Of a stretch of 64,000 nt of DNA, positions 367 through 50,794 are shown piece by piece; position 1 is the stretch's first letter, and each line of letters begins with the position of its first letter. Location of the stretch: positions 62,001 to 126,000 of the forward strand of contig CALZID010000001.1 of the NCBI GenBank assembly GCA_945787805.1, in the 5' to 3' direction. Origin of the DNA: an uncultured Clostridia bacterium (lineage in GTDB: Bacteria > Bacillota > Clostridia > Oscillospirales > Acutalibacteraceae). The notes below the pieces were generated by a model. It saw only the letters and a program-made list of their open reading frames with translations, searched no databases and was not told the origin of the DNA. The translations under genes were made by a program, and so were the position numbers.

Positions 367-1539
367 ATGAAAGAAATTATACTCATAAAAAACGGCGAAT
401 TGGCGCTTAAAGGCTTAAACCGTTCTACTTTTGAAGATATTCTCATTAAAAATATCAGAAAGAGAATAAAACCTTTGGGCGATTTTGAATACAGAAAAGA
501 ACAGTCAACAGTATCGGTGGTGCCTATGGACGATTATGTTGATATGGACGAAGTAAGCGACAGAATCAGTCGGGTTTTCGGTATTGCCGCATTTTCAAGA
601 GCGTTGCAAGTGGAAAAAGATATTGATGTGATTTTAGAGCAAGCGCCGATTTATCTTGCCGAGCAGTTAAGAAATGCAAGGACATTTAAAGTCGAAGGCA
701 AACGCTCCGATAAGAAATTCCCGCTTAAATCACCTGAGCTTTCCGCAGAAGTGGGCGGCGCAATTCTATCAAAATTTCCGCACTTAAAAGTTGATGTGAG
801 AAATCCCGATATTCTTGTAACTATAGAAATCCGTGAAAAATTTGCATTTATTCGTGGCAATCAAACAAAGGGTGCAGGCGGAATGCCGACGGGTTCAGCG
901 GGTAAATCCGCAATTCTTATTTCAGGCGGAATTGACAGTCCCGTTGCAGCATATATGATGGCAAAGCGTGGCTTAGTGCTTAATGCAATTCATTTTGCTT
1001 CCCCACCGTATACTTCACCTCAGGCGGAAGAAAAGGTGCATAATCTTCTTCGCAAGGTTTCGAGATACAGCGGCAATATAACTCTTTTTACAGTCGGTTT
1101 TACGGAAATTCAAGAGGCAATCAGAGATAATTGCCCCGAAGAACTGTTTACGCTTGTAATGAGAAGATTTATGATGCGAATTTCACAAAGAATTGCCGAT
1201 AAAGAAGACTGCAAAGCCCTTATAACCGGCGAAAGCTTAGGTCAGGTTGCCAGTCAAACACTTAATGCTTTAGCTTGTACGGATGCGGTAGTTTCAATGC
1301 CCGTTTTCAGACCTGTTATCGGTCTTGATAAAGAAGAAATTATCAAAATTTCACGGCAGATTGATACTTTTGATATTTCGATTGAGCCTTTTGAAGACTG
1401 TTGTACAGTGTTTACACCTAAGCATCCGAAAACAAGACCGCAAATTTCTGTTTTAGAACAGGCGGAAGAGTCCCTTGATGTTGACGGACTTATTGACAGA
1501 GCACTTGAAAATACAAAAATCCAAAACATTTGCTTTTAA
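367..1539 (+). CDS. thiI: tRNA 4-thiouridine synthase ThiI
   Basis: ThiI adenylates U8 of tRNA and inserts sulfur to make 4-thiouridine; in some species it also serves thiazole synthesis. The 390-residue product has an N-terminal ferredoxin-like/THUMP region (roughly residues 1-165) and a PP-loop ATPase motif, SGGIDSP, at about residues 186-192. A conserved cysteine pair lies in EDCCTVFTPKHPKTRP near the C terminus. The C-terminal rhodanese domain of the E. coli protein is absent, as is usual in Firmicutes, where a dedicated cysteine desulfurase delivers sulfur directly. That desulfurase is the gene immediately upstream. A TPP-riboswitch thiamine transporter (thiT) lies 10 kb downstream. Confidence 0.95.
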   Translation: MKEIILIKNGELALKGLNRSTFEDILIKNIRKRIKPLGDFEYRKEQSTVSVVPMDDYVDMDEVSDRISRVFGIAAFSRALQVEKDIDVILEQAPIYLAEQLRNARTFKVEGKRSDKKFPLKSPELSAEVGGAILSKFPHLKVDVRNPDILVTIEIREKFAFIRGNQTKGAGGMPTGSAGKSAILISGGIDSPVAAYMMAKRGLVLNAIHFASPPYTSPQAEEKVHNLLRKVSRYSGNITLFTVGFTEIQEAIRDNCPEELFTLVMRRFMMRISQRIADKEDCKALITGESLGQVASQTLNALACTDAVVSMPVFRPVIGLDKEEIIKISRQIDTFDISIEPFEDCCTVFTPKHPKTRPQISVLEQAEESLDVDGLIDRALENTKIQNICF

Positions 1540-1548
1540 GGTGAAATA

Positions 1549-2028
1549 ATGACACTTGAAGAAAAAGTAGTTAAAATACTAAACGAAAAAGGACTTCTGC
1601 TCGCTTGCGCCGAGTCTTGTACGGGCGGGTTGATTGCAAAGCGCATTACCGATGTCAGCGGCTCTTCCGCAGTGTTTAATTGCGGAATAGTCAGTTACAG
1701 TAACGATATTAAAGAAAGTATTTTGGGCGTAAAACACGAAACACTTGAAAAATACGGTGCAGTCAGTGAACAAACGGTTCGTGAAATGGTGCAGGGTGTA
1801 CTGAGATTATCAAAGGCAGATATTGCCGTTTCGGTTTCGGGAATTGCAGGGCCTAACAGCGATAACACATTAAAACCCGTGGGTTTAATTTTTCTTGCAA
1901 TTGCTTATAATAACGAAATTAAGGTTGTTCGGCTTAACAACAGTTTTTCCGATGATATAAGAAATCAAAACAGGAAAAGTGCTGCCGATGAAGCGTTTAG
2001 AATGATACTGGATATGGTAGGTGAATAG
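1549..2028 (+). CDS. pncC: nicotinamide-nucleotide amidase PncC (stand-alone CinA C-terminal domain)
   Basis: The 159-residue protein is a single CinA C-terminal domain, the family that deamidates nicotinamide mononucleotide to recycle the pyridine ring of NAD. It shows the active-site motif CAESCTGGLIAKRI at about residues 20-33, the SYSNDIKESILGV stretch, GAVSEQTVREM, and the VSVSGIAGP loop. The N-terminal molybdopterin-like domain of full CinA is missing. It follows thiI by 9 bases and overlaps or abuts the next sortase gene, so it probably belongs to the same operon. Two genes downstream a second, degenerate CinA-like sequence appears fused to SpoIID. Confidence 0.9.
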   Translation: MTLEEKVVKILNEKGLLLACAESCTGGLIAKRITDVSGSSAVFNCGIVSYSNDIKESILGVKHETLEKYGAVSEQTVREMVQGVLRLSKADIAVSVSGIAGPNSDNTLKPVGLIFLAIAYNNEIKVVRLNNSFSDDIRNQNRKSAADEAFRMILDMVGE

Positions 2029-2029
2029 A

Positions 2030-2947
2030 TTGTCAGAAAATATGGGCAAGGGTAAAATCTTTATTATGGTTGTTTGTATAATTGTGTTTGTCTTGTCTTC
2101 TGCCGTATTGATAAAATATGTTGTTTCAGAATATAACAGTAATAAAATGTATGAAGAACTTGCAAATTCAGTTTCAACCGAAAATACGGACGATGAAGCT
2201 TCTGTGCCTGATTATTCTGCTCTCTATGAAAAAAATTCTGACTTTATCGGGTGGATTTCTGTTCCTAACACTTCAATAAACTATCCTGTTGTACAGTGTG
2301 ACAACAATGATTACTATTTGAGTAACAATTTTTTTAAAGCGAGAGACGCCCGGGGCGCAATTTTTATGGATTATCGGAATAACCCTGTAAATCTTGACTC
2401 AAATACGGTAATTTACGGTCATAACTGTTATAATACTAATATGTTTTCCGAACTTACAAAATTTCAAAATATTGATTTCTATAAATCAACTCCCGTGTTT
2501 GAATTTAACACTGTTGAAAAAGAGTACAAGTGGAAAATATACGGCGTATTTATTACAACGGCTAAGCCGGAAGAAGATAACGACTATATTTTCAATTATA
2601 CCTATCAACACATGGACGGCGAAAACTTTGACGGATTTATTGAAGAAATAAATAAACGCCGCTTATATGTAACCGATGTTGATATAAACGACGACGATAA
2701 AATGCTAATTCTTTCAACTTGCGTCAGAAGCCTTGATAAATATGAAAAGCTGAAAAAATATAAGGCTGATGCGAGACTTGTTGTGGTTGCCCGTGCCGTT
2801 AGAGACGGTGAGAGCGAAACCGTTGATGTGAGTAAAACATACAGTAATAAAAATGTAAAATATCCGCAAATTTATTATGATAATAAAAATATTGAAAATC
2901 CATATAAAAATGATGATAAATGGTATCCGAAGGAGGTTGTGCAATAA
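2030..2947 (+). CDS. class B sortase (first of a tandem pair)
   Basis: This is a membrane-anchored transpeptidase that cleaves a sorting signal in exported proteins and joins them to peptidoglycan or another acceptor. An N-terminal membrane segment (about residues 8-28) precedes a class B sortase domain of the usual type. The catalytic triad is visible: His in VIYGHNCYN (about residue 131), Cys in ILSTCVRS (about 231) and Arg in ADARLVVV (about 249). Starts at GTG 2021 and TTG 2030 are both possible; TTG 2030 has AGGTG six bases upstream, so I chose it. The gene overlaps the pncC end or nearly so, and its stop overlaps the start of the second sortase (TAATG), indicating translational coupling. 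Confidence 0.88.
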   Translation: MSENMGKGKIFIMVVCIIVFVLSSAVLIKYVVSEYNSNKMYEELANSVSTENTDDEASVPDYSALYEKNSDFIGWISVPNTSINYPVVQCDNNDYYLSNNFFKARDARGAIFMDYRNNPVNLDSNTVIYGHNCYNTNMFSELTKFQNIDFYKSTPVFEFNTVEKEYKWKIYGVFITTAKPEEDNDYIFNYTYQHMDGENFDGFIEEINKRRLYVTDVDINDDDKMLILSTCVRSLDKYEKLKKYKADARLVVVARAVRDGESETVDVSKTYSNKNVKYPQIYYDNKNIENPYKNDDKWYPKEVVQ

Positions 2948-4236
2948 TGAGTAATACTGAAAATAACGAAAGCGAAATTCTCACTTTTGAAGATTTGAGC
3001 AAAGAACTCGGTATAGCAGAAACTCCTAAAAAAGAAACCGTAACAAAAACAAATGATATTGCTGACGAGATTGAAAAGCAGCTTGACGCACAAGTTAATA
3101 GCGAGAGAGATAACGCTCAAAAGACTTTGATAGAAAACGGAAAAACTTTCGTAGATGTTACCGAACAATATGTTAAGTCGCCGGTTGTTCTTGAAACAAT
3201 TGAAGCTCCCATTGAAAAACCTGAACAGCAAAAGAAAAAGAGAAAAACTTTTAATCAAATTTTTTCTGATTTTTTCAGCGCAATTATCCCTTTGAAAAAA
3301 GACAGTACAAAAGAAAAAGTCAGAAAAATCATTATGGATATTTCAATAATCACCATAATCGGCTGCGTTGTTGCCTTTGGTGAGCTGTATAAGCAAAACC
3401 GCGAAGAGCTGAAGATGGAAGAAGAAATTAAAAATCAAATTGTTAATACCGATAATTTTGACGATAATCAATATGTCGAAGCGTGGCAGGAGCTTTTTGC
3501 ACAGTATCCTCAAATTGAATTTCCTGAGAATATGAATCTCAAATATTCATATCTCTATGCACTCAACCAAGATTTAGTGGGCTGGTTAAACATTCCGGGA
3601 ACAAATTTAGATGTTCAAGTTGTGCAAGGCTCCGATAATGACTATTATCTTCGCAGAGATTTTTACGGAAAATCAAATCGTTACGGCTGTCCGTATATGG
3701 ATTATAAAAATGACCCGAAATACCTTGATGACAATACAATCATTTACGGTCATCACATGACTGACGGCTTGATTTTTTCAAACCTTGATAAGTATAAAAC
3801 TTTAGAGGGCTACAAAGAATCTCCTATAATAGAGTACAATACTTTATACGATACATATTATTTTAAGGTTTTTGCGGCATTTTATATCAATGCAACACCT
3901 GCCGATGATAATAATTATTTCTTTAACTTTATGATTACCGATTTTTCAACTGATGAAAGATTTTTAAAGTTTGCAGATGAATTGAAAAAACGAAGCGTTA
4001 TTGATACAGGTGTCAGTGTGCAACCCGATGATAAACTCATTACATTGGTCACATGCACTTATGAATTTAACGATGCGAGATTTGTTGTGGTCGGAAGAAT
4101 GGTTCGTGAAAACGAAAATGTTGATGTTGACACGAGCAACGCAACTCTTAACACAAACCCGAAATTTCCGCAAGCATGGTATGATGTTAAAGGTTTGACA
4201 AATCCGTTTAAAGATGACAAAAAGTGGGATGAATAG
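2947..4236 (+). CDS. class B sortase with long cytoplasmic N-terminal extension (second of tandem pair)
   Basis: The 429-residue sortase has catalytic His in IIYGHHMTDG (about residue 269), Cys in LVTCTYEF (about 370) and Arg in DARFVVVGR (about 378). Unlike its neighbour it carries about 125 charged residues before its single membrane segment (about 128-148), ending in a lysine-rich patch. With the membrane segment placed this way, that extension would sit in the cytoplasm. The start ATG at 2947 is fixed by AAGGAGG at 2930-2936 and overlaps the previous stop codon. Both proteins share the IYGH and ARxVVVxRxVR blocks and a similar C-terminal NPxK-DDKW tail, so they probably arose by duplication. 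No obvious LPxTG or NPxTN substrate is encoded in the window. Confidence 0.88.
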   Translation: MSNTENNESEILTFEDLSKELGIAETPKKETVTKTNDIADEIEKQLDAQVNSERDNAQKTLIENGKTFVDVTEQYVKSPVVLETIEAPIEKPEQQKKKRKTFNQIFSDFFSAIIPLKKDSTKEKVRKIIMDISIITIIGCVVAFGELYKQNREELKMEEEIKNQIVNTDNFDDNQYVEAWQELFAQYPQIEFPENMNLKYSYLYALNQDLVGWLNIPGTNLDVQVVQGSDNDYYLRRDFYGKSNRYGCPYMDYKNDPKYLDDNTIIYGHHMTDGLIFSNLDKYKTLEGYKESPIIEYNTLYDTYYFKVFAAFYINATPADDNNYFFNFMITDFSTDERFLKFADELKKRSVIDTGVSVQPDDKLITLVTCTYEFNDARFVVVGRMVRENENVDVDTSNATLNTNPKFPQAWYDVKGLTNPFKDDKKWDE

Positions 4237-4286
4237 TTAGTTAAAATTTTAGATTTATATATGGGTAAAAGAGAGGTAGAATATTT

Positions 4287-6452
4287 ATGAAATTGAGATT
4301 GTTAGCGCTGAATGTTGACAAGAATATGCCTTTTGCAAGATTTCAGTCAAGAGTTGTCAGCAGTATCAGTATGTATTCTGATGAAAATGTATCTTTTGAA
4401 CATTTTGAAAGCTTGCAGGAAATTTTTGAAGCATTGCAGGACGCATTGGAAAATGATGAAATTATTATCACGGCTGTAGACACAAAGCATTACAATAAGC
4501 TGAAAACAGCTTTGATGCAGGCGCTTGAAACAGATGTTACATATAATCCGACAGTTCTCAATATGCTTGAGAGCGACGAAGAAATGGATGACAAAACCCG
4601 TAAAGCGTTTGCGGCTTTTCCCGAACCGGCAACTGTGTTCCTTTCAAAAGACGGTTTTTATTCCGGCTTCGGAATTGAAAACGGAGAGCAGTATTTGATA
4701 TTTATACCTATTGACAATGAAAGAATTAACTCCATTCTCAGAAACGGTGTTGTACCTTTCTTATCAAAAAATATTGAAGATGTTAACGGCGAAGAATTTT
4801 TAAGCGAAAATAAATACTATGATAACGAAAAAGTGGCAATAGCAGTAAAAAGACTCATTGACTCAGAGTCTATCGTTGCCGTTAACGGTACAAAAAATGC
4901 AGAAATCATCAAGAGCTGCGGCGACAGTGTTAAGGGCTTTGACAGTGTGTTTGTTTTCACTCCCCATGTTGAAGATAAAGGCGATGTGAACGCAACAGAA
5001 TATGCCGCACAGCTTGCCAAGGTCAGCTTGGACCTTTCGGCAGCAAATATCGGTGCATCAATCAGCGATATATACAATGCCGGTAATTCAAAATTTATAT
5101 GTATTGCAGTTGCAAATGATGAGTCTGCAATTGTTCGTAAAATATATATGTCGGAAGACGAAACAGAAGAAGCATTTATTGAAAGTGCGGCTATTGAACT
5201 TATTGAGCTTATAGGCGAAAAAGCCAGCGGTGTCAGAAGCGTTGGAATTGAAATAACGGACGGTCCTGAGTTTATTCCCGATGAAGATAAAAAACCGACT
5301 AATAAAAAGTCAATGATAATTTTTGCGGTTGTTCTCGGCGCCATCGTGATAATTTGTGTAGCATTGGGCATTGTCTATAAAGTTCAAGGTGAAAACGGAG
5401 CATTATCTAACGCACTTAATTCAATTTTCGGCAATGAGACAACAACTGAAACAACAACCGAGTCAACGACAGAATCAACAACAGAGCCTGTCACCGATGC
5501 AAAGCCGACTGCAATGAAGCTTTCAGATTATATGATGGCTGATATTATTGCTCTTGAAAAGAAGAAGAGTGAAGCACAAACTTCAACAACAGAACCTGTA
5601 ACCGCTACAGAAAACGAAAGCACAACAGGAGCGGAAATAGTTGAAGATAAGGGCGCTCCTGCAACAATGAAAATCAACGGTGTTGAAATCGATGCAAAAG
5701 AAGCACTTGCAAGACTCGTTATGACCGAAATGGGTGAAGGTTATAATATTGAAGCAGTTAAAGCGCAGACTGTTGTAATTTATACATATCTCAAATACAG
5801 AGATACAAATTTTGAAATCGACGGTGTTTTAATAAGCGAAACATATAACGATGAAATAAAGACCGCAGTTGATGAGGTTTTCGGCAGATATCTCAGTGTA
5901 AAGGATGAAGTTGCGCTCACACCGTATTTTGCAGTTGCCGCAGGAAAAACTGCAAACGGCGCCGATATTTTCTCAAAAGAATATGATTATCTTAAACCGG
6001 TTGCAATTAACGGAAACCCTGATTCAAAGGCAGAAACATACAAAATTGAAAGAAAAATTACCTTGGGCGAAATGAAAGGAATGCTTCTTAAATATAACAA
6101 TAAGCTAACACTTGACGAAGACCCGGCATTGTGGATAAGCGTTGCTGCTCATGATACTGCAGTTTCTTCAAGCATTGGCTATGTCACGAAGGTTTCAGTT
6201 GGCGGAACCGAAATTTCAGGTCTTGAATTTAAAAATGAAGTAATCGGTTCAGCAATTATGTCGTCTCATTGCTTCACCGTGTTCTATAACGAAAGTGACA
6301 GTTCATTTACAATTACAACTTACGGTAACGGCTTGGGTGTAGGTATGAGCCAAACAGGCGCAAATCACCTTGCAAATACAGGTATGAAATATGACAAAAT
6401 CCTTTCAACTTATTATAAAGGAACAACATTGACAAAGGAGAAAAATATATGA
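4287..6452 (+). CDS. membrane protein: degenerate CinA-like cytoplasmic region, TM helix, Thr-rich linker and extracellular SpoIID domain
   Basis: The 721-residue protein has four parts. Residues 1-165 resemble the molybdopterin-like half of Cin[18 protein letters not shown], then [28 protein letters not shown] and NGVVPFL. Residues 175-320 resemble its PncC half, with [18 protein letters not shown] at about 252, but the catalytic ESCTGG is replaced by NGTKNA (about 201-206). A membrane helix follows at about 343-364, then a Thr/Glu-rich linker (about 377-405). The C-terminal 260 residues are a SpoIID domain, with [17 protein letters not shown] and [11 protein letters not shown]. SpoIID is a peptidoglycan lytic transglycosylase of sporulation. 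The ribosome site AGAGGTAG fits the ATG. SpoIID assignment is firm; the CinA part is my reading by eye. Confidence 0.8.
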
Positions 6453-7471
6453 GTAAGATTTTGGTAACAGGCGGCGCAGGTTTTATTGGCTCACACACAT
6501 GTGTTGAGCTTCTCAATGCGGGATATGAAATTGTAGTGGTTGATAATCTCTACAATTCCAGCGAAAAATCTCTTGACAGAGTTCGTGAACTTACAGGAAA
6601 GGATTTCCCGTTTTATCCGTTTGATATCCGTGATAAAGAGAATATGCAAAAGATTTTTGATGACCATAAAATTGATGCTTGCATTCATTTTGCAGGTCTT
6701 AAAGCAGTGGGTGAGAGTTGTCAAAAACCCCTTGAATATTATGATAATAATATTGGCGGAACATTGGCTCTTTGCGAAGTTATGAAGAATAACGAATGCA
6801 AAAAAATTGTTTTCAGCTCATCTGCAACAGTTTACGGAATGGACAATATTTCGCCTCTTAAAGAAACAATGAAAACGGGTGGAACTACCAATCCTTACGG
6901 AACAACAAAATATATGATTGAAATCATTCTTGAAGATTTCCATAAAGCCGATAAAGAGTGGGGAGTAACATTACTTCGTTACTTTAATCCAATCGGTGCG
7001 CATAAAAGCGGCAGAATCGGAGAAAATCCAAATGGAATTCCAAACAATCTTATGCCATATATCACACAGGTTGCAATCGGAAAATTACCGCAACTTAATG
7101 TGTTTGGCGATGATTATAACACACATGACGGTACAGGCGTCAGAGACTACATTCATGTTGTTGATTTAGCGCTCGGTCATGTTAAAGCGGTTGAGAAAAT
7201 TCTTAGCAACACACCTGCAGTAAATATATATAATCTCGGCACAGGCAAAGGTTACAGTGTTCTTGATATTGTTAAAGCATTTGAACAGGCTTCGGGACAG
7301 AAGATAAACTATAAGATTGCTGACCGTCGTCCCGGTGACCTTGATATTTGCTATTCCGATGCGTCAAAGGCTCTTAATGAATTGGGCTGGAAAGCCGAAA
7401 GAGATCTCTTGGAAATGTGCGAAGACTCTTGGCGTTGGCAGAGCAACAATCCTAACGGATTTGACGAATAA
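6449..7471 (+). CDS. galE: UDP-glucose 4-epimerase GalE
   Basis: This short-chain dehydrogenase/reductase-family epimerase interconverts UDP-glucose and UDP-galactose, feeding the Leloir pathway and surface polysaccharide synthesis. The 340-residue length is standard. The N terminus has the Rossmann NAD motif [15 protein letters not shown]; the catalytic region shows SSSATVYG and the YxxxK pair in [11 protein letters not shown], followed by [17 protein letters not shown]. The ATG overlaps the stop of the SpoIID-like gene, with AAAGGAG just upstream, so the two are translationally coupled. The window also carries an alpha-galactosidase (41.7 kb) that could supply galactose. Confidence 0.95.
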
Positions 7472-33520: not shown

Positions 33521-34747
33521 TTATTTGTTAAGAGAATTAACGATATCTCTTGTATCTCTTGCGATAACAAGCTCTTCGTTTGTAGGCAGAACAAATACTT
33601 TAACTTTTGAATTCGGTGTTGAGAGTTCACCCTCGGCGCCCTTAATAAGGGTCTTGCCGTATTCTTCGTCAATTTCAATACCAAGGAAAGTGAGCTCTTT
33701 ACAAACTTTTGCACGGATATCATCAGCATTTTCACCGATACCGCCTGTAAATACGATTGCATCAATACCGTCCATAGCGGCAGTATAAGCGCCGATGTAT
33801 CTCTTAATTTGATATGCAAGAATATTTCTTGCAAGTGTGCAGCGTTCACCGAGTCCTTTTTCGTTTTTGGCAGCTTCTTTCTTAACATCACGGTCATCGG
33901 AGCTGAGTCCAGAAATGCCGAGAATACCGGATTTCTTGTTAAGAAGTGTATCCATTTCTTCAACAGAAAGCTTTTCTTTATCCATAATATAAAGAATTGC
34001 AGACGGGTCAACTGCACCGCAGCGAGTACCCATAATAAGACCGTCAAGGGGAGTAAGTCCCATTGTAGTGTCAATTACCTTTCCGCCTTTAACAGCCGTA
34101 ATTGATGAACCGTTGCCAAGGTGGCAAGTAACGATTTTAAGGTCTTCAATGTTCTTGCCCATAACTTCTGCACATCTTGCACTTACAAAGCGGTGTGAAG
34201 TACCGTGGAAGCCATATTTACGAACCTGATATTTTTCATAGAATTCATAAGGAACAGGGAAAGTATATGCTTCAGGGGGCATTGTGCTGTGGAAAGCATT
34301 ATCAAATACCGTAACCTGCGGAACATCCTTGCCGAAAAGCTCTATACTTGCATTGATACCCTGAATATGAGCAGGGTTGTGAAGCGGGGCAAGTGCGCAC
34401 AAATCTTCTATACCTTTGATAACTTCGTCGGTAACAAGCACACTCCTGTTGAAAAGCGAACCACCCTGAACAACACGGTGACCGACCGCCGTAATTTCGC
34501 TGATGTCATCAATAACCTTGTAATCGCCCTCAGTGAGAACTTTCTTAACTTCTGCAAAAGCGGCTGTATGGTTCTTCATGGGAACTTCATACTCAATCTT
34601 TTGCCCGTCGGGAGTTTTGAAGCTGATACAAGCGTTATCAGAACCAACTCTTTCGCAAATACCTTTTGCGATAACTTTTTCATCAGTCATATCAATAAGC
34701 TGATATTTAAGTGATGAGCTACCTGCGTTAATAACGAGAATTTTCAT
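33521..34747 (-). CDS. ackA: acetate kinase
   Basis: AckA makes ATP and acetate from acetyl phosphate in fermentation, and can run in reverse to activate acetate. The 408-residue protein shows all family signatures: VINAGSSSLKYQLID at the N terminus, GHRVVQGGSLF, YGFHGTSHRFVSA, TCHLGNGSSI and FTGGIGENADDIRAK. GGAGG lies upstream of the ATG. No phosphotransacetylase gene is in the window. It is divergent from tmcAL, an enzyme that uses acetate, and separated from it by 112 bases. Confidence 0.96.
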   Translation of the reverse strand: MKILVINAGSSSLKYQLIDMTDEKVIAKGICERVGSDNACISFKTPDGQKIEYEVPMKNHTAAFAEVKKVLTEGDYKVIDDISEITAVGHRVVQGGSLFNRSVLVTDEVIKGIEDLCALAPLHNPAHIQGINASIELFGKDVPQVTVFDNAFHSTMPPEAYTFPVPYEFYEKYQVRKYGFHGTSHRFVSARCAEVMGKNIEDLKIVTCHLGNGSSITAVKGGKVIDTTMGLTPLDGLIMGTRCGAVDPSAILYIMDKEKLSVEEMDTLLNKKSGILGISGLSSDDRDVKKEAAKNEKGLGERCTLARNILAYQIKRYIGAYTAAMDGIDAIVFTGGIGENADDIRAKVCKELTFLGIEIDEEYGKTLIKGAEGELSTPNSKVKVFVLPTNEELVIARDTRDIVNSLNK

Positions 34748-38937: not shown

Positions 38938-39577
38938 AACTGTAAAATTTGATTATACCGATTTTAAAAAACATAATATGATGAATATCATCAGACCCGT
39001 CGGCAATTTGTTTTGTAAAACTTATTATAAAGTCCAATTTGAAGGACTTGAAAATATCGACAGAACGGACGGATTTATCATTGCGCCGAATCATGTAACA
39101 GAGTTTGACCCACTGTTTATAGCAATGGCTTCAAAAAGACTTTTTTATTACATCGCAAAAGTAGAATTATTTAAAAACCCAATTCTTAATAAAGCGATTA
39201 GAAGCTTGAATGGTTTTCCGATTGTGCGCGGTATCGGTGATAAAACCGCGCTGAACTTTGCCATTGAGATAGTTAAGCGCGGCGAAGTTCTCTGCATATT
39301 CCCCGAAGGTACCCGTTCACCTGACGGAACACCTCAAAAAGAAAAGTCAGGCGTAGGCTATATAGCCAGAAGAACAGGCGCCGATATAATACCTACTGCA
39401 ATTTATATGGAAGATAAAGATAAAAAGGGCTCAAAGGTAATTGTGAAATTCGGCGAGGCATACAAATATTCCGATATGGGATTTACCGATGACGGCAAAT
39501 CGTCTGAAAATAAAGCAGTTGCAAAAAGAACAATGGAAAAAATCACTGCTCTTTGGGAGGAATGTAAGTGCAGATAA
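38930..39577 (+). CDS. plsC: 1-acyl-sn-glycerol-3-phosphate acyltransferase
   Basis: PlsC adds the second acyl chain to lysophosphatidic acid at the membrane. The 215-residue protein shows the HX4D catalytic motif PNHVTEFDPL (about residues 52-57) and the substrate-binding block FPEGTRSPDG, followed by IPTAIY. A weak amphipathic or membrane segment lies near residues 15-30. ATG 38930 follows GGGGGAG and overlaps the cmk stop; its own end overlaps the ispH start by 10 bases. Confidence 0.93.
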   Translation: MSETVKFDYTDFKKHNMMNIIRPVGNLFCKTYYKVQFEGLENIDRTDGFIIAPNHVTEFDPLFIAMASKRLFYYIAKVELFKNPILNKAIRSLNGFPIVRGIGDKTALNFAIEIVKRGEVLCIFPEGTRSPDGTPQKEKSGVGYIARRTGADIIPTAIYMEDKDKKGSKVIVKFGEAYKYSDMGFTDDGKSSENKAVAKRTMEKITALWEECKCR

Positions 39578-41601
39578 CTCTTGCAAAAACAGCGGGATTT
39601 TGCTTCGGTGTGAACCGTGCCGTAAATATGCTCTATGACCTTGTTGAAAAGGGAGTTGATGTTTGCACCCTCGGACCGATTATACATAATCCTCAGGTTA
39701 TAGATGACCTTGAGCGAAAGGGAGTCAATATTTTGGCTTCAATTGAAGACGCCAGAAAAGACAAAAAGGTTGTAATCAGAACTCACGGCGTTGAACGCAG
39801 TGTGCTGGAATATTGCGAAAGCAATGCTTTAAATTTTATTGACGCTACTTGTCCCTTTGTAAAAAAAATACATAAAATTGTCCGTGAAAACTCAAGTGCG
39901 GATTTACCCGTATTGATTGCAGGCGACAAAAAACACCCTGAGGTTGTCGGCATAAAAAGTTATTGCGCAGGTAAGTGCTTTGTATTTAATTCCTGTGAAG
40001 AATTGGATGAAATTTTCAAAAACAACGATTTTAACCCCGAAAAACCGTTTATTGTTGTTTCTCAAACAACTTTTAGTACAAAAGAATGGAAAAAATGTGT
40101 AAAAAATATAAATTTGCACTATACAAATGCCATTATTTTTGATACAATATGTAATGCGACCGAAGAAAGACAGGCAGAGGCGCTGTTGTTATCGAAAAAA
40201 AACGATATGATGATAATAATAGGCGGCCGAACGAGTTCCAATACCGCAAAGCTTAAAGCGGTTTGTGAACCCAATTGCCCGACTTATTTGATTGAAACAG
40301 CAGAAGAGCTTTTGGACATAGCCTTTTGTGATGTTCAGTCAATAGGCGTTACTGCCGGTGCGTCAACACCTGACAGTATAATTAAGGAGGTAATAAAAAC
40401 TATGTCCGAGAAATTTGAAAACGCAAACACAATAAATATGGAGGAGACAGGCTTTGAGCAGATGCTTGAAGAATCACTCAACAATATGAGTTCTGACCAA
40501 AATGTTGTCGGTACGGTTGTCGGCTTCACGGCAACTGAAATTCAGGTTGAGATTGCAGGCAGAAAGCATACAGGCTATGTGTCTTTTGATGAATATAGTG
40601 ATGACCCATCAGCTGACCCAAAAGCAGAGCTCAAAGTCGGCGATGAAATCAAGCTTCGCATTATGAAGACAAATGATGTTGAAGGTACAATCAAGCTTTC
40701 AAAGCGTCTGTATGACCGCGGCGCCATCTGGGAGAGCATTGAAGCTGACGACACAATCCATACAGGTATGGTAACAGGCATCGTCGGCGACAATAAGGGC
40801 GTATTTGTTCAGAGCGGAGCAATTAAAGTGTTCATTCCCGCTTCTCTTGCAAAAATGAGAAGAAGTGATTCTCTTGAAGATCTTCTCAAAACAGAGGTTG
40901 AATACAAAATAATTGAAGTAAACAAGCAGAGAAGAAAGGTAGTCGGCTCAATCCGTGAGGTTGCGGCAGCAAAGAGACAGGAGATTGTTGACGCATTCTG
41001 GGCAAATATTACAGAAGGAGCAGTTTACACAGGCACAGTCAGAAGTCTCACAAACTACGGCGCATTTGTTGACCTTGGCGGCGTTGACGGTATGGTACAT
41101 ATCTCTGAGCTTTCATGGCAGAGAATTAAGCACCCGTCAGAAGTTGTTAAAGTTGGCGACACAATTGAAGTTTATGTAAAAGAGCTTGACAGAGAAAACA
41201 AAAAGATTTCACTTGGCTATAAAAAGATTGAAGACAATCCGTGGGAAATCCTTAAGCGTGATTATCCCGTTGACAGTGAAGTTGAATGCAAGATTGTAAG
41301 CCTTACATCATTCGGTGCATTCGCACAGATTATCCCCGGTGTTGACGGCCTTATCCATATTTCACAGATTGCTTATAAGCACATCGGCACACCCGCCGAA
41401 GTGCTCAAAGTCGGCGAAATTGTTAAGGCAAAGATTATGGAAATTGACTTTGATAAGAAGAGAGTAAGTCTTTCAATTAAGGCGCTTCTTGAACCGCCTG
41501 TAATCGAAGAAGAAACAGTAGAAGAAGTTGCTGAATCTCCGGTTGAAGAAGTAGTAGAAGAAGCAGCTTCTGAAGAAACGGCAGAAGCTCCCGTTGAATA
41601 A
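39568..41601 (+). CDS. ispH: fusion of IspH (HMBPP reductase) with S1 ribosomal protein domains
   Basis: The 677-residue protein joins two functions. Residues 1-277 are IspH, a 4Fe-4S enzyme making isopentenyl and dimethylallyl diphosphate; its cluster cysteines are in AGFCFGVNRAV (12-15), DATCPFVKKI and DTICNATEERQ. From about residue 310 there are four S1 RNA-binding domains, the last two most typical (NYGAFVDLGGVDGMVHISELS; SFGAFAQIIPGVDGLIHISQ), followed by a Val/Glu-rich tail. The fusion is known in Clostridia. The GTG start has GGGAGG eight bases upstream. An in-frame ATG with a perfect ribosome site lies at the junction (40402), and an in-frame tail continues past the stop. Confidence 0.9.
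   Translation: MQITLAKTAGFCFGVNRAVNMLYDLVEKGVDVCTLGPIIHNPQVIDDLERKGVNILASIEDARKDKKVVIRTHGVERSVLEYCESNALNFIDATCPFVKKIHKIVRENSSADLPVLIAGDKKHPEVVGIKSYCAGKCFVFNSCEELDEIFKNNDFNPEKPFIVVSQTTFSTKEWKKCVKNINLHYTNAIIFDTICNATEERQAEALLLSKKNDMMIIIGGRTSSNTAKLKAVCEPNCPTYLIETAEELLDIAFCDVQSIGVTAGASTPDSIIKEVIKTMSEKFENANTINMEETGFEQMLEESLNNMSSDQNVVGTVVGFTATEIQVEIAGRKHTGYVSFDEYSDDPSADPKAELKVGDEIKLRIMKTNDVEGTIKLSKRLYDRGAIWESIEADDTIHTGMVTGIVGDNKGVFVQSGAIKVFIPASLAKMRRSDSLEDLLKTEVEYKIIEVNKQRRKVVGSIREVAAAKRQEIVDAFWANITEGAVYTGTVRSLTNYGAFVDLGGVDGMVHISELSWQRIKHPSEVVKVGDTIEVYVKELDRENKKISLGYKKIEDNPWEILKRDYPVDSEVECKIVSLTSFGAFAQIIPGVDGLIHISQIAYKHIGTPAEVLKVGEIVKAKIMEIDFDKKRVSLSIKALLEPPVIEEETVEEVAESPVEEVVEEAASEETAEAPVE
40384..40404 (+). 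promoter_or_regulatory. internal Shine-Dalgarno and ATG at the IspH-S1 junction
   Basis: AAGGAGGTAATAAAAACTATG: a consensus Shine-Dalgarno AAGGAGG (40384-40390), continued by T, precedes an in-frame ATG (40402) by 11 bases. Initiation here would yield a free S1-domain protein of about 399 residues. Confidence 0.6.
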
Positions 41602-50023: not shown

Positions 50024-50068
50024 TTGTGTTAAGCGCAATTTTATGATAAAATATAGTCGGTGATAATT

Positions 50069-50794
50069 ATGAAAAAACTTTTATCATTTTTTCTAACATT
50101 GATTTTAATATTTTCTGTATTAAGTATTTCCTGTTTTGCAGATAATCCTGTAAAATTAACACTTGACAGCGAAACGGATACTGTTTATGCAGGGGATGAA
50201 TTTGTTGTTAAACTTATGATTAGCGATAATTCTAAAATGAGCGGTGCCGCAATTGATATCAATTACGATAAAAATCAACTTGAGTATGTTTCAGGTACAT
50301 TCGGCGGAATTTTAGATTCATCCGCAACGAAGAGCTTGAAAAATCTCAACGGTGATAAATCAAAAGTCAGATTTACTTATCTTGCCCCGTCTTCTGCGGT
50401 AACTTCACAAGGCGTTTTGATTACGCTTAAATTCAAAGCACTTGAAAATGCACACGGAGAAAGTGAATTAACAATATCAATTCCCAATCCGGGTGATTTT
50501 GTTTCGCAAGATTTGTCAAGATTGAGTTATACTGTTGAGAATACAAGAATCAGCATAAAGAATAATACTGTCGAGACTGAGTCGGTTACCGAAGCAGAGA
50601 CAGAGTCACAGAGCGTTGAAATTACAACCGAAATCGCATCAACTGTTGAAAATGTTCAGAATGTTGATGACGGTGATTCTGAAAATACAAACAAAATAAT
50701 ATTTGCTGTTGTAATTTTTGGTGCGGCAATACTTGTGATTGTGGTGTTATTGGTCAGACAACCAACATCAAAGAAGAAAAAGGGGAAAAAATAA
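50069..50794 (+). CDS. cell-surface cohesin-domain protein with C-terminal membrane anchor
   Basis: The 241-residue protein has a signal peptide (about 1-24, ending in CFADN), then one domain of about 135 residues like cohesins: VKLTLDSETDTVYAGDEFVVKL, GAAIDINYDKNQLEYVSG, then VLITLKFKALENAHGESELT. A Glu/Thr-rich spacer follows, and a membrane helix (about 210-230) with a lysine-rich tail, so it would display the domain on the cell surface. Cohesins bind dockerin modules in cellulosomes, but isolated cohesin-like domains also occur elsewhere. GGTGA precedes ATG 50069; it is coupled to the zinc-ribbon gene. Confidence 0.75.
   Translation: MKKLLSFFLTLILIFSVLSISCFADNPVKLTLDSETDTVYAGDEFVVKLMISDNSKMSGAAIDINYDKNQLEYVSGTFGGILDSSATKSLKNLNGDKSKVRFTYLAPSSAVTSQGVLITLKFKALENAHGESELTISIPNPGDFVSQDLSRLSYTVENTRISIKNNTVETESVTEAETESQSVEITTEIASTVENVQNVDDGDSENTNKIIFAVVIFGAAILVIVVLLVRQPTSKKKKGKK

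Follow-up and report, generated by a model that had tools for sequence, protein, structure and literature searches.

The window, meaning the whole analyzed stretch of 64,000 nucleotides from an uncultured Clostridia bacterium, carries on its forward strand an operon with the gene order thiI-pncC-srtB-srtB-[dCinA-SpoIID]-galE, where dCinA denotes a degenerate CinA. Neighboring genes overlap or almost touch each other, with pncC and the first sortase gene sharing 8 bases and the fusion gene and galE sharing 4. The fusion gene (4287-6452, forward strand) starts with ATG, is open throughout, and encodes a protein of 721 residues. The features of the operon, including the individual parts of the fusion gene, are the following:

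367-1539, forward strand: thiI-like gene, presumably thiI, the first of the conserved run
1549-2028, forward strand: pncC, NMN deamidase with ESCTGG and GIAGP intact (TIGR00199, 152.9 bits, cut-off 68.9)
2021-2947, forward strand: class B sortase 1 (TIGR03064, 170.8 bits, above the cut-off of 153.75)
2920-4236, forward strand: class B sortase 2 (TIGR03064, 162.5 bits, above the cut-off of 153.75; PF04203, 1.9e-14)
4287-4784, forward strand: COG1058/MoaB-like half of dCinA (approximately aa 1-166), GGLGPTxDD lost (hhalign and residue mapping)
4830-5276, forward strand: PncC-like half of dCinA (approximately aa 182-330), catalytic Ser/Lys dyad lost (hhalign and residue mapping)
5316-5372, forward strand: transmembrane helix, aa 344-362 (hydropathy scan, mean 3.23)
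5442-5576, forward strand: Thr/Glu-rich extracytoplasmic linker, approximately aa 386-430 (sequence)
5685-6437, forward strand: SpoIID/LytB domain, aa 467-717 (TIGR02669 and PDB profile matches)
6449-7471, forward strand: galE-like gene, which we take to be galE

In the initial annotation, an intact pncC had been placed two genes upstream of the fusion; it is indeed intact as judged by TIGR00199, with the correction that two class B sortase genes intervene. The second of these sortases possesses a long N-terminal extension ahead of its transmembrane segment. Scans for promoters and terminators gave nothing above shuffled controls.

The 721-residue protein is composed of dCinA (aa 1-330), a transmembrane helix, a Thr-rich linker, and a SpoIID domain, in this order. 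All four elements had been proposed beforehand; the helix is recovered by hydropathy at aa 344-362, and the SpoIID domain exceeds the cut-offs of both NCBIfam TIGR02669 (E 5.6e-29, 101.9 bits, cut-off 83.3) and Pfam PF08486 (E 9.2e-5, 23.4 bits, cut-off 23). Its solved relatives are 5i1t, 5txu, and 4rwr (E 1.2e-17 to 4.6e-14). The Glu aligned to position 101 of 5txu, presumably the catalytic Glu of SpoIID, is retained as E481 (5727-5729), and lytic transglycosylase activity is predicted for the domain. Because the Lys-rich stretch KKPTNKKSM directly precedes helix 344-362 and puts positive residues on its N-terminal side, the protein would adopt an N-in/C-out orientation with dCinA in the cytoplasm and SpoIID outside the cell. 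Elsewhere in the window, a LytB domain that we take to be IspH-type is fused to four S1 RNA-binding repeats (39568-41601, forward strand), an arrangement known in Clostridia.

As a single sequence, the window protein gives weak CinA-type matches against NCBIfam—PRK01215 (E 3.6e-5) and PRK00549 CinA (E 0.022), with a V-ATPase subunit F model (E 0.0055) ranking between the two. The whole protein scores 13.8 bits against the CinA model NF001813 and does not reach the cut-off of 379, and a Pfam search of the protein returns neither PF00994 nor PF02464. Among the individual dCinA members, 12 of 28 match the NCBIfam CinA model and 6 of 28 match PRK01215 (E up to 0.1, best approximately 1e-5); PF02464 is found in 3 of 28 (best E 0.0026) and ten other Pfam families in 1 of 28 each. 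The only PF00994 signal in the genome search is accounted for by an acetate kinase gene of the window (33521-34747, reverse strand; PF00871), since this carries a sub-threshold MoCF_biosynth match. Searched with the single sequence, the PDB returned solely beta-lactamases (E 0.21 and worse), an assignment that was rejected.

A dCinA profile of 28 rows, without L015 and L029, was compared by hhalign with 24 CinA proteins of the same order. The profiles match at 99.3% (E 4e-20) over 323 columns and are colinear from start to end; the controls are silent, with 0.84% for the best of 20 column-shuffled CinA profiles, 0.07% for reversed CinA, and 0.17% for SpoIID. Each half returns to its own CinA domain: the first to the CinA N-domain (97.7%, E 1.5e-12, versus 0.38% for KH and 0.14% for PncC) and the second to the PncC domain (97.2%, E 3.4e-11, versus 0.24% for the N-domain and 6.6% for KH). 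In a PDB profile search, CinA 6mr3 ranks on top with a whole-sequence E of 7e-4 (best single segment 0.29), and the T. thermophilus CinA structures rank third (E 0.058) behind a designed minibinder (0.045). With these comparisons and the relatives, it is near certain that aa 1-330 are a degenerate CinA, as originally annotated. The proposal that this part tracks full-length CinA holds for both end domains and their order and fails for the KH domain between them, which is missing; a pairing of one peptide with the TGIAGP region of PncC is reproduced in the hhalign alignment.

Catalytic positions were mapped over 28 dCinA rows. In the window protein, neither Gly of GGLGPT is matched by any residue, and the remainder of the motif is replaced; the Asp position that comes first after the motif holds Tyr/Phe in 27 of the 28 rows. 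ESCTGG is replaced in dCinA, with the nucleophile Ser changed to Thr in 24/28 rows. The general base Lys63 of PncC is without a counterpart in the window protein, in which other residues occupy the Arg145 region and the segment following the Lys63 position is shorter; at the Tyr58 position, Tyr is retained in 9/28 rows. The absence of both motifs, already recorded in the initial annotation, extends to all 44 dCinA-module ORFs listed (six being weak matches), none of which shows either pattern. For A. tumefaciens PncC, the consulted sections of PMC5384747 report undetectable activity of S31, K63, and R145 mutants. The KH domain is absent from dCinA, its GIGES loop being without a counterpart and neither half matching the KH stretch; in T. 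thermophilus CinA, this loop helps close the ADP-ribose site (PMC4246079, sections consulted). Retained in dCinA are G123 (24/28 rows), G127 (26/28), and P141 (27/28). K73 and F128 are invariant across the 28 rows, and the stretch FTPHVEDKG is conserved in the genus. Mean column identity of dCinA across the family is 29%.

In the 12 closest pairs, dN/dS ranges from 0.05 to 0.22 for dCinA and from 0.01 to 0.14 for the SpoIID domain, where the pairs share members and those with the window protein are dS-saturated for dCinA. Relative to dS, dCinA evolves two to seven times faster than SpoIID in some pairs. Since dN/dS is low in 12/12 pairs, dCinA is under purifying selection and is not decaying. 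This selection, together with the catalytic loss, agrees with the earlier description of a dead enzyme retained for sensing or scaffolding.

dCinA is present in all 27 good genus genomes (≥90% complete, ≤5% contaminated) and in 38/39 genus genomes in all; all 36 named genus contigs join it to SpoIID, one being cut by the contig end. Within the same family, homologues occur in 57/200 genomes in a single-sequence search at E≤0.001 and, by hand count, in at least 46/200 at E≤1e-20. The search across the order that had been suggested for this protein does find dCinA (5/295 genomes at E≤1e-20), solely within the window's own family f1; hence, as far as this sample goes, dCinA appears to be an innovation of that family. 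A rapidly built, midpoint-rooted tree, in which branches are long, covers the dCinA proteins of at least 200 bits and, from the 24 clean CinAs of the order, every other one. A branch with an SH-aLRT of 100 separates 39/39 dCinA proteins tested from 56 CinAs. This grouping fits a single origin of dCinA.

The 36 strong family cases comprise 11 dCinA-TM-SpoIID proteins, 17 dCinA-TM proteins (one cut), and 8 without a transmembrane segment, a split obtained by greedy ORF picking that missed some genes. One of these eight, L197, shows a segment at a looser hydropathy cut-off; 7/36 lack one at both cut-offs. Two adjacent dCinA genes are found in L178 (4853-8736, forward strand), one with a transmembrane segment only and the other fused to SpoIID. 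Mutual exclusion of dCinA and full CinA was considered and rejected as the two co-occur: full CinA lies at most four genes upstream in 13/36 strong-dCinA stretches, and PncC alone in 11/36.

The most constant element around dCinA is the sortase. The nearest recognized gene 5′ of dCinA encodes a class B sortase in 76/77 stretches (37 of the genus and 40 of the family), and SpoIID is fused to or downstream of dCinA in 61/77. The genus set consists of the window and 36 named loci, with some stretches ending early; herein, a sortase is the nearest labeled upstream gene in 37/37 (median gap 37 bases), CinA/PncC lies upstream in 32/37, thiI upstream on the same strand in 34/37, and galE next downstream in 35/37. 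In the family stretches, the nearest labeled upstream gene is a sortase in 39/40 (median sortase gap 30.5 bases) and another dCinA in 1/40; CinA/PncC lies upstream in 33/40, thiI upstream in 25/40, and galE downstream in 14/40. Here, SpoIID is fused to dCinA in 12/40 and unfused in 28/40, one of the latter being cut by the contig end. Because SpoIID is fused or downstream in only 24/40 family stretches, it is not a universal partner. The 60 family stretches were selected (40 for dCinA and 20 primarily for long frames with CinA), and proportions among them do not estimate frequencies in the population. Sortase thus accompanies dCinA constantly and SpoIID frequently.

Sorting-signal substrates with the motif were found by a simple tail scan neither in the window nor in 35/36 named loci. 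At 50057-50791 (forward strand), the window encodes a protein that combines a cohesin domain (PF00963, E 3.6e-18), a C-terminal transmembrane helix, and a Lys-rich tail, without an LPXTG-type motif; it is possibly a membrane-held cellulosome-type anchor.

Sortases are also fused directly to CinA/PncC. In 26 of 40 further stretches, CinA/PncC and a class B sortase are encoded in one ORF (L149-L165, L167, L168, L221-L224, and L234-L236), and 6 of the 26 also contain SpoIID. A CinA match in a frame of at least 660 aa occurs in at least 50/200 family genomes by hand count, and all 22 stretches fetched from these genomes combine CinA/PncC and class B sortase in one frame. Against NCBIfam, PncC is above cut-off in 5/5 fusions (L151, L160, L222, L223, and L224) and the sortase in 3/5, with L160 and L223 below. 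Of 25 CinA/PncC-sortase fusions listed, all keep the ESCTxG-type motif and 17 keep GGLGPT. The stretch preceding the transmembrane segment of the window's sortase 2 (IIPLKKDSTKEKVRK) resembles, by eye, the fused proteins of L224 (LIPFKGDERSEIIRK) and L149 (IIPWKGDPPLEVVRK). The sortase domains of some fusions look degenerate by eye, as in L160 and the second gene of L149. This second gene encodes a weak dCinA half (profile E 4e-13; no CinA model match at 0.001), a transmembrane segment, a sortase that scores under its cut-off and whose His and Cys are, by eye, no longer there, and a SpoIID domain above cut-off; it is plausibly an intermediate towards the form seen in the window.

The surroundings of cinA/pncC were sampled with one stretch from one genome each in 20 other families, and with more for f1, f4, f10, f15, and f26. 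At least five families of the order have a sortase fused to or located beside cinA/pncC. This sortase is fused or adjacent in f1; fused in 3/3 genomes fetched of f4, in 2/2 of f15 (with SpoIID next), and in 1/1 of f23; and beside pncC in 8/8 of f26, where SpoIID occurs in 7/8 stretches. One case in f9 has a sortase 80 bases from cinA/pncC. No sortase was seen in the stretch around cinA/pncC in the other 18 families sampled, nor near it in the f1 genomes G127, G020, and G021 or in two more f10 genomes. A class-wide search of 291 genomes with a PncC-sortase fusion at E≤1e-40 (21 matched) gave no further single-frame fusion. The sortase link to cinA/pncC is wider than dCinA itself. In L226 of family f2 (3347-4987, reverse strand), thiI and pncC form one open frame of 547 aa.

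We consider it probable, judging from sequence, that dCinA is a repurposed dead CinA serving as the cytoplasmic scaffold of a sortase/SpoIID surface complex. A CinA paralogue, presumably arisen by duplication, would have lost its KH domain and both active sites, retained its two-domain body, and been drawn into a membrane complex with class B sortases, of which it forms the cytoplasmic component; in the window's genus, it would then have become fused via one transmembrane helix to the SpoIID lytic domain. The body may act as an assembly platform that pairs with itself or, as a hetero-oligomer, with the PncC of the same operon, since CinA and PncC domains dimerize: pairing in the CinA dimer involves the COG1058 as well as the NMN deamidase domains (PMC4246079), and in the PncC dimer a phosphate-binding residue is supplied by the other subunit (PMC5384747; sections consulted of both). 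Such a platform would keep SpoIID close to both sortases; glycans may then be cut at the very site at which proteins are attached, with the wall edited where anchoring occurs. A scaffold or pseudo-enzyme partner would be the simplest reading because the body is kept, an intact-looking PncC is co-encoded, and a sortase is nearly always adjacent. Against this reading stand the empty scan for sorting-signal substrates in the window, the lack of a transmembrane segment in 7/36 strong cases, the family stretches that have SpoIID neither fused nor downstream, and the faster change of dCinA than of SpoIID in some pairs.

dCinA could instead be a ligand sensor, altering the activity of SpoIID or the sortases across the membrane upon binding of ADP-ribose, a pyridine nucleotide, or some other nucleotide; we regard this as rather unlikely. 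A precedent is provided by SteA, a homodimer with a nucleotide-type pocket that regulates the hydrolase RipA jointly with SteB (PMC12977500, sections consulted), and an NMN deamidase with intact motifs in the same operon as well as purifying selection on dCinA would agree with sensing. The window protein, however, keeps neither Lys63 nor the Arg145 region, with the stretch after Lys63 shortened; it has no KH domain to close the ADP-ribose site; and a single short transmembrane segment is, in our judgment, a poor conduit for a conformational signal. Nucleotide gating of wall cleavage by dCinA, which the initial annotation rightly offered as no more than an idea, is conceivable, though the residues known to act in catalysis and to bind phosphate are lost.

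Improbable, too, is that dCinA catalyzes a different reaction. An altered activity is conceivable because the nucleophile Ser became Thr, which calls for caution; in addition to this change in 24/28 rows and the Tyr kept at position 58 in 9/28, new conserved positions have appeared (K73 and F128 in 28 rows, FTPHVEDKG in the genus). Yet the window protein no longer has the general base Lys, the Arg145 region, or the MoaB catalytic loop, and 29% mean column identity is low conservation across the family. Less probable still is a role as a sporulation device with the fusion as a second SpoIID for engulfment: the labeled neighbors are sortases, pncC, thiI, and galE, and a separate 335-aa SpoIID in the genome scores far better (E 1.2e-61 vs 6.0e-30), although Spo0A is above cut-off in the genome and the solved relatives of the domain are all named stage II sporulation protein D. 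With this better-scoring SpoIID and Spo0A present, the fusion cannot simply be assumed to be the SpoIID of sporulation. An inert leftover of a decayed CinA-sortase or CinA-SpoIID fusion, in which only the anchor matters, is hardly credible and already disfavored, as the degenerate-looking sortase domains that would suit it stand against a low dN/dS in 12/12 pairs and against the 28/40 family stretches keeping dCinA without a fused SpoIID.

The proposed scaffold can be compared with several known systems. CinA is associated with competence, and a role in NAD recycling has been proposed for it (PMC4246079, sections consulted). CinA with its COG1058-KH-PncC architecture (T. thermophilus 4CT8/4UOC; 6MR3) shares both end domains and their order with dCinA, whereas the window protein is without KH and active sites, membrane-anchored, and fused to SpoIID. 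Compared with SpoIID/LytB proteins (5I1T, 5TXU, and 4RWR), the domain is above the curated cut-off and keeps the aligned Glu; the window protein differs by its N-terminal dCinA, its Thr-rich stalk, and its sortase and pncC neighbors.

SteAB and Glp are likened here by mode of working, from their descriptions, and no family membership is claimed. In SteAB-RipA of Mycobacteriales, a cytoplasmic nucleotide-enzyme-like domain is linked across the membrane to a wall hydrolase, and dCinA would work alike. steA-steB fusions occur, steAB adjoins spo0A in some Clostridia, and CgSteA is stabilized by GDP/UDP, with inconclusive results for MtSteA. In contrast to dCinA, which resembles CinA, SteA resembles thiamine pyrophosphokinase; the hydrolase is a separate endopeptidase, and sortase is not mentioned in the sections consulted (PMC12977500 for all statements on SteAB). 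Glp/GlpR of Corynebacteriales is a duplicated MoeA-type enzyme that has been repurposed as a membrane-linked envelope scaffold; unlike dCinA, Glp derives from MoeA and not CinA, binds FtsZ, and is without a fused lytic domain (PMC10522489, sections consulted). CinA N-domains match the Glp model weakly.

PMC3855486 remarks, without taking the point further, that CinA domains are occasionally fused to other domains, with sortase unmentioned in the consulted main text. For a link of CinA with SpoIID, CinA with sortase, SpoIID with sortase, or PncC with sortase, no description was found in the literature library searched, as far as its texts were available; the earlier statement that no CinA-SpoIID protein is described agrees with this library.

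As a tentative extension, whose truth we rather doubt, the window protein would be the most derived form of an undescribed transmembrane system of several Clostridia families, in which active-looking CinA/PncC or dCinA controls class B sortase and SpoIID, and NMN/NAD turnover sets anchoring and local wall cleavage. The gene cluster and the natural fusions offer a direct, testable lead that surface-protein anchoring involves an NAD-salvage enzyme in several Clostridia families. The repurposed dCinA suggests that a metabolic enzyme has been recycled into part of a cell-surface machine and would, beside SteA and Glp, add another case in which the fold of a metabolic enzyme came to organize the cell wall from a membrane-linked position.
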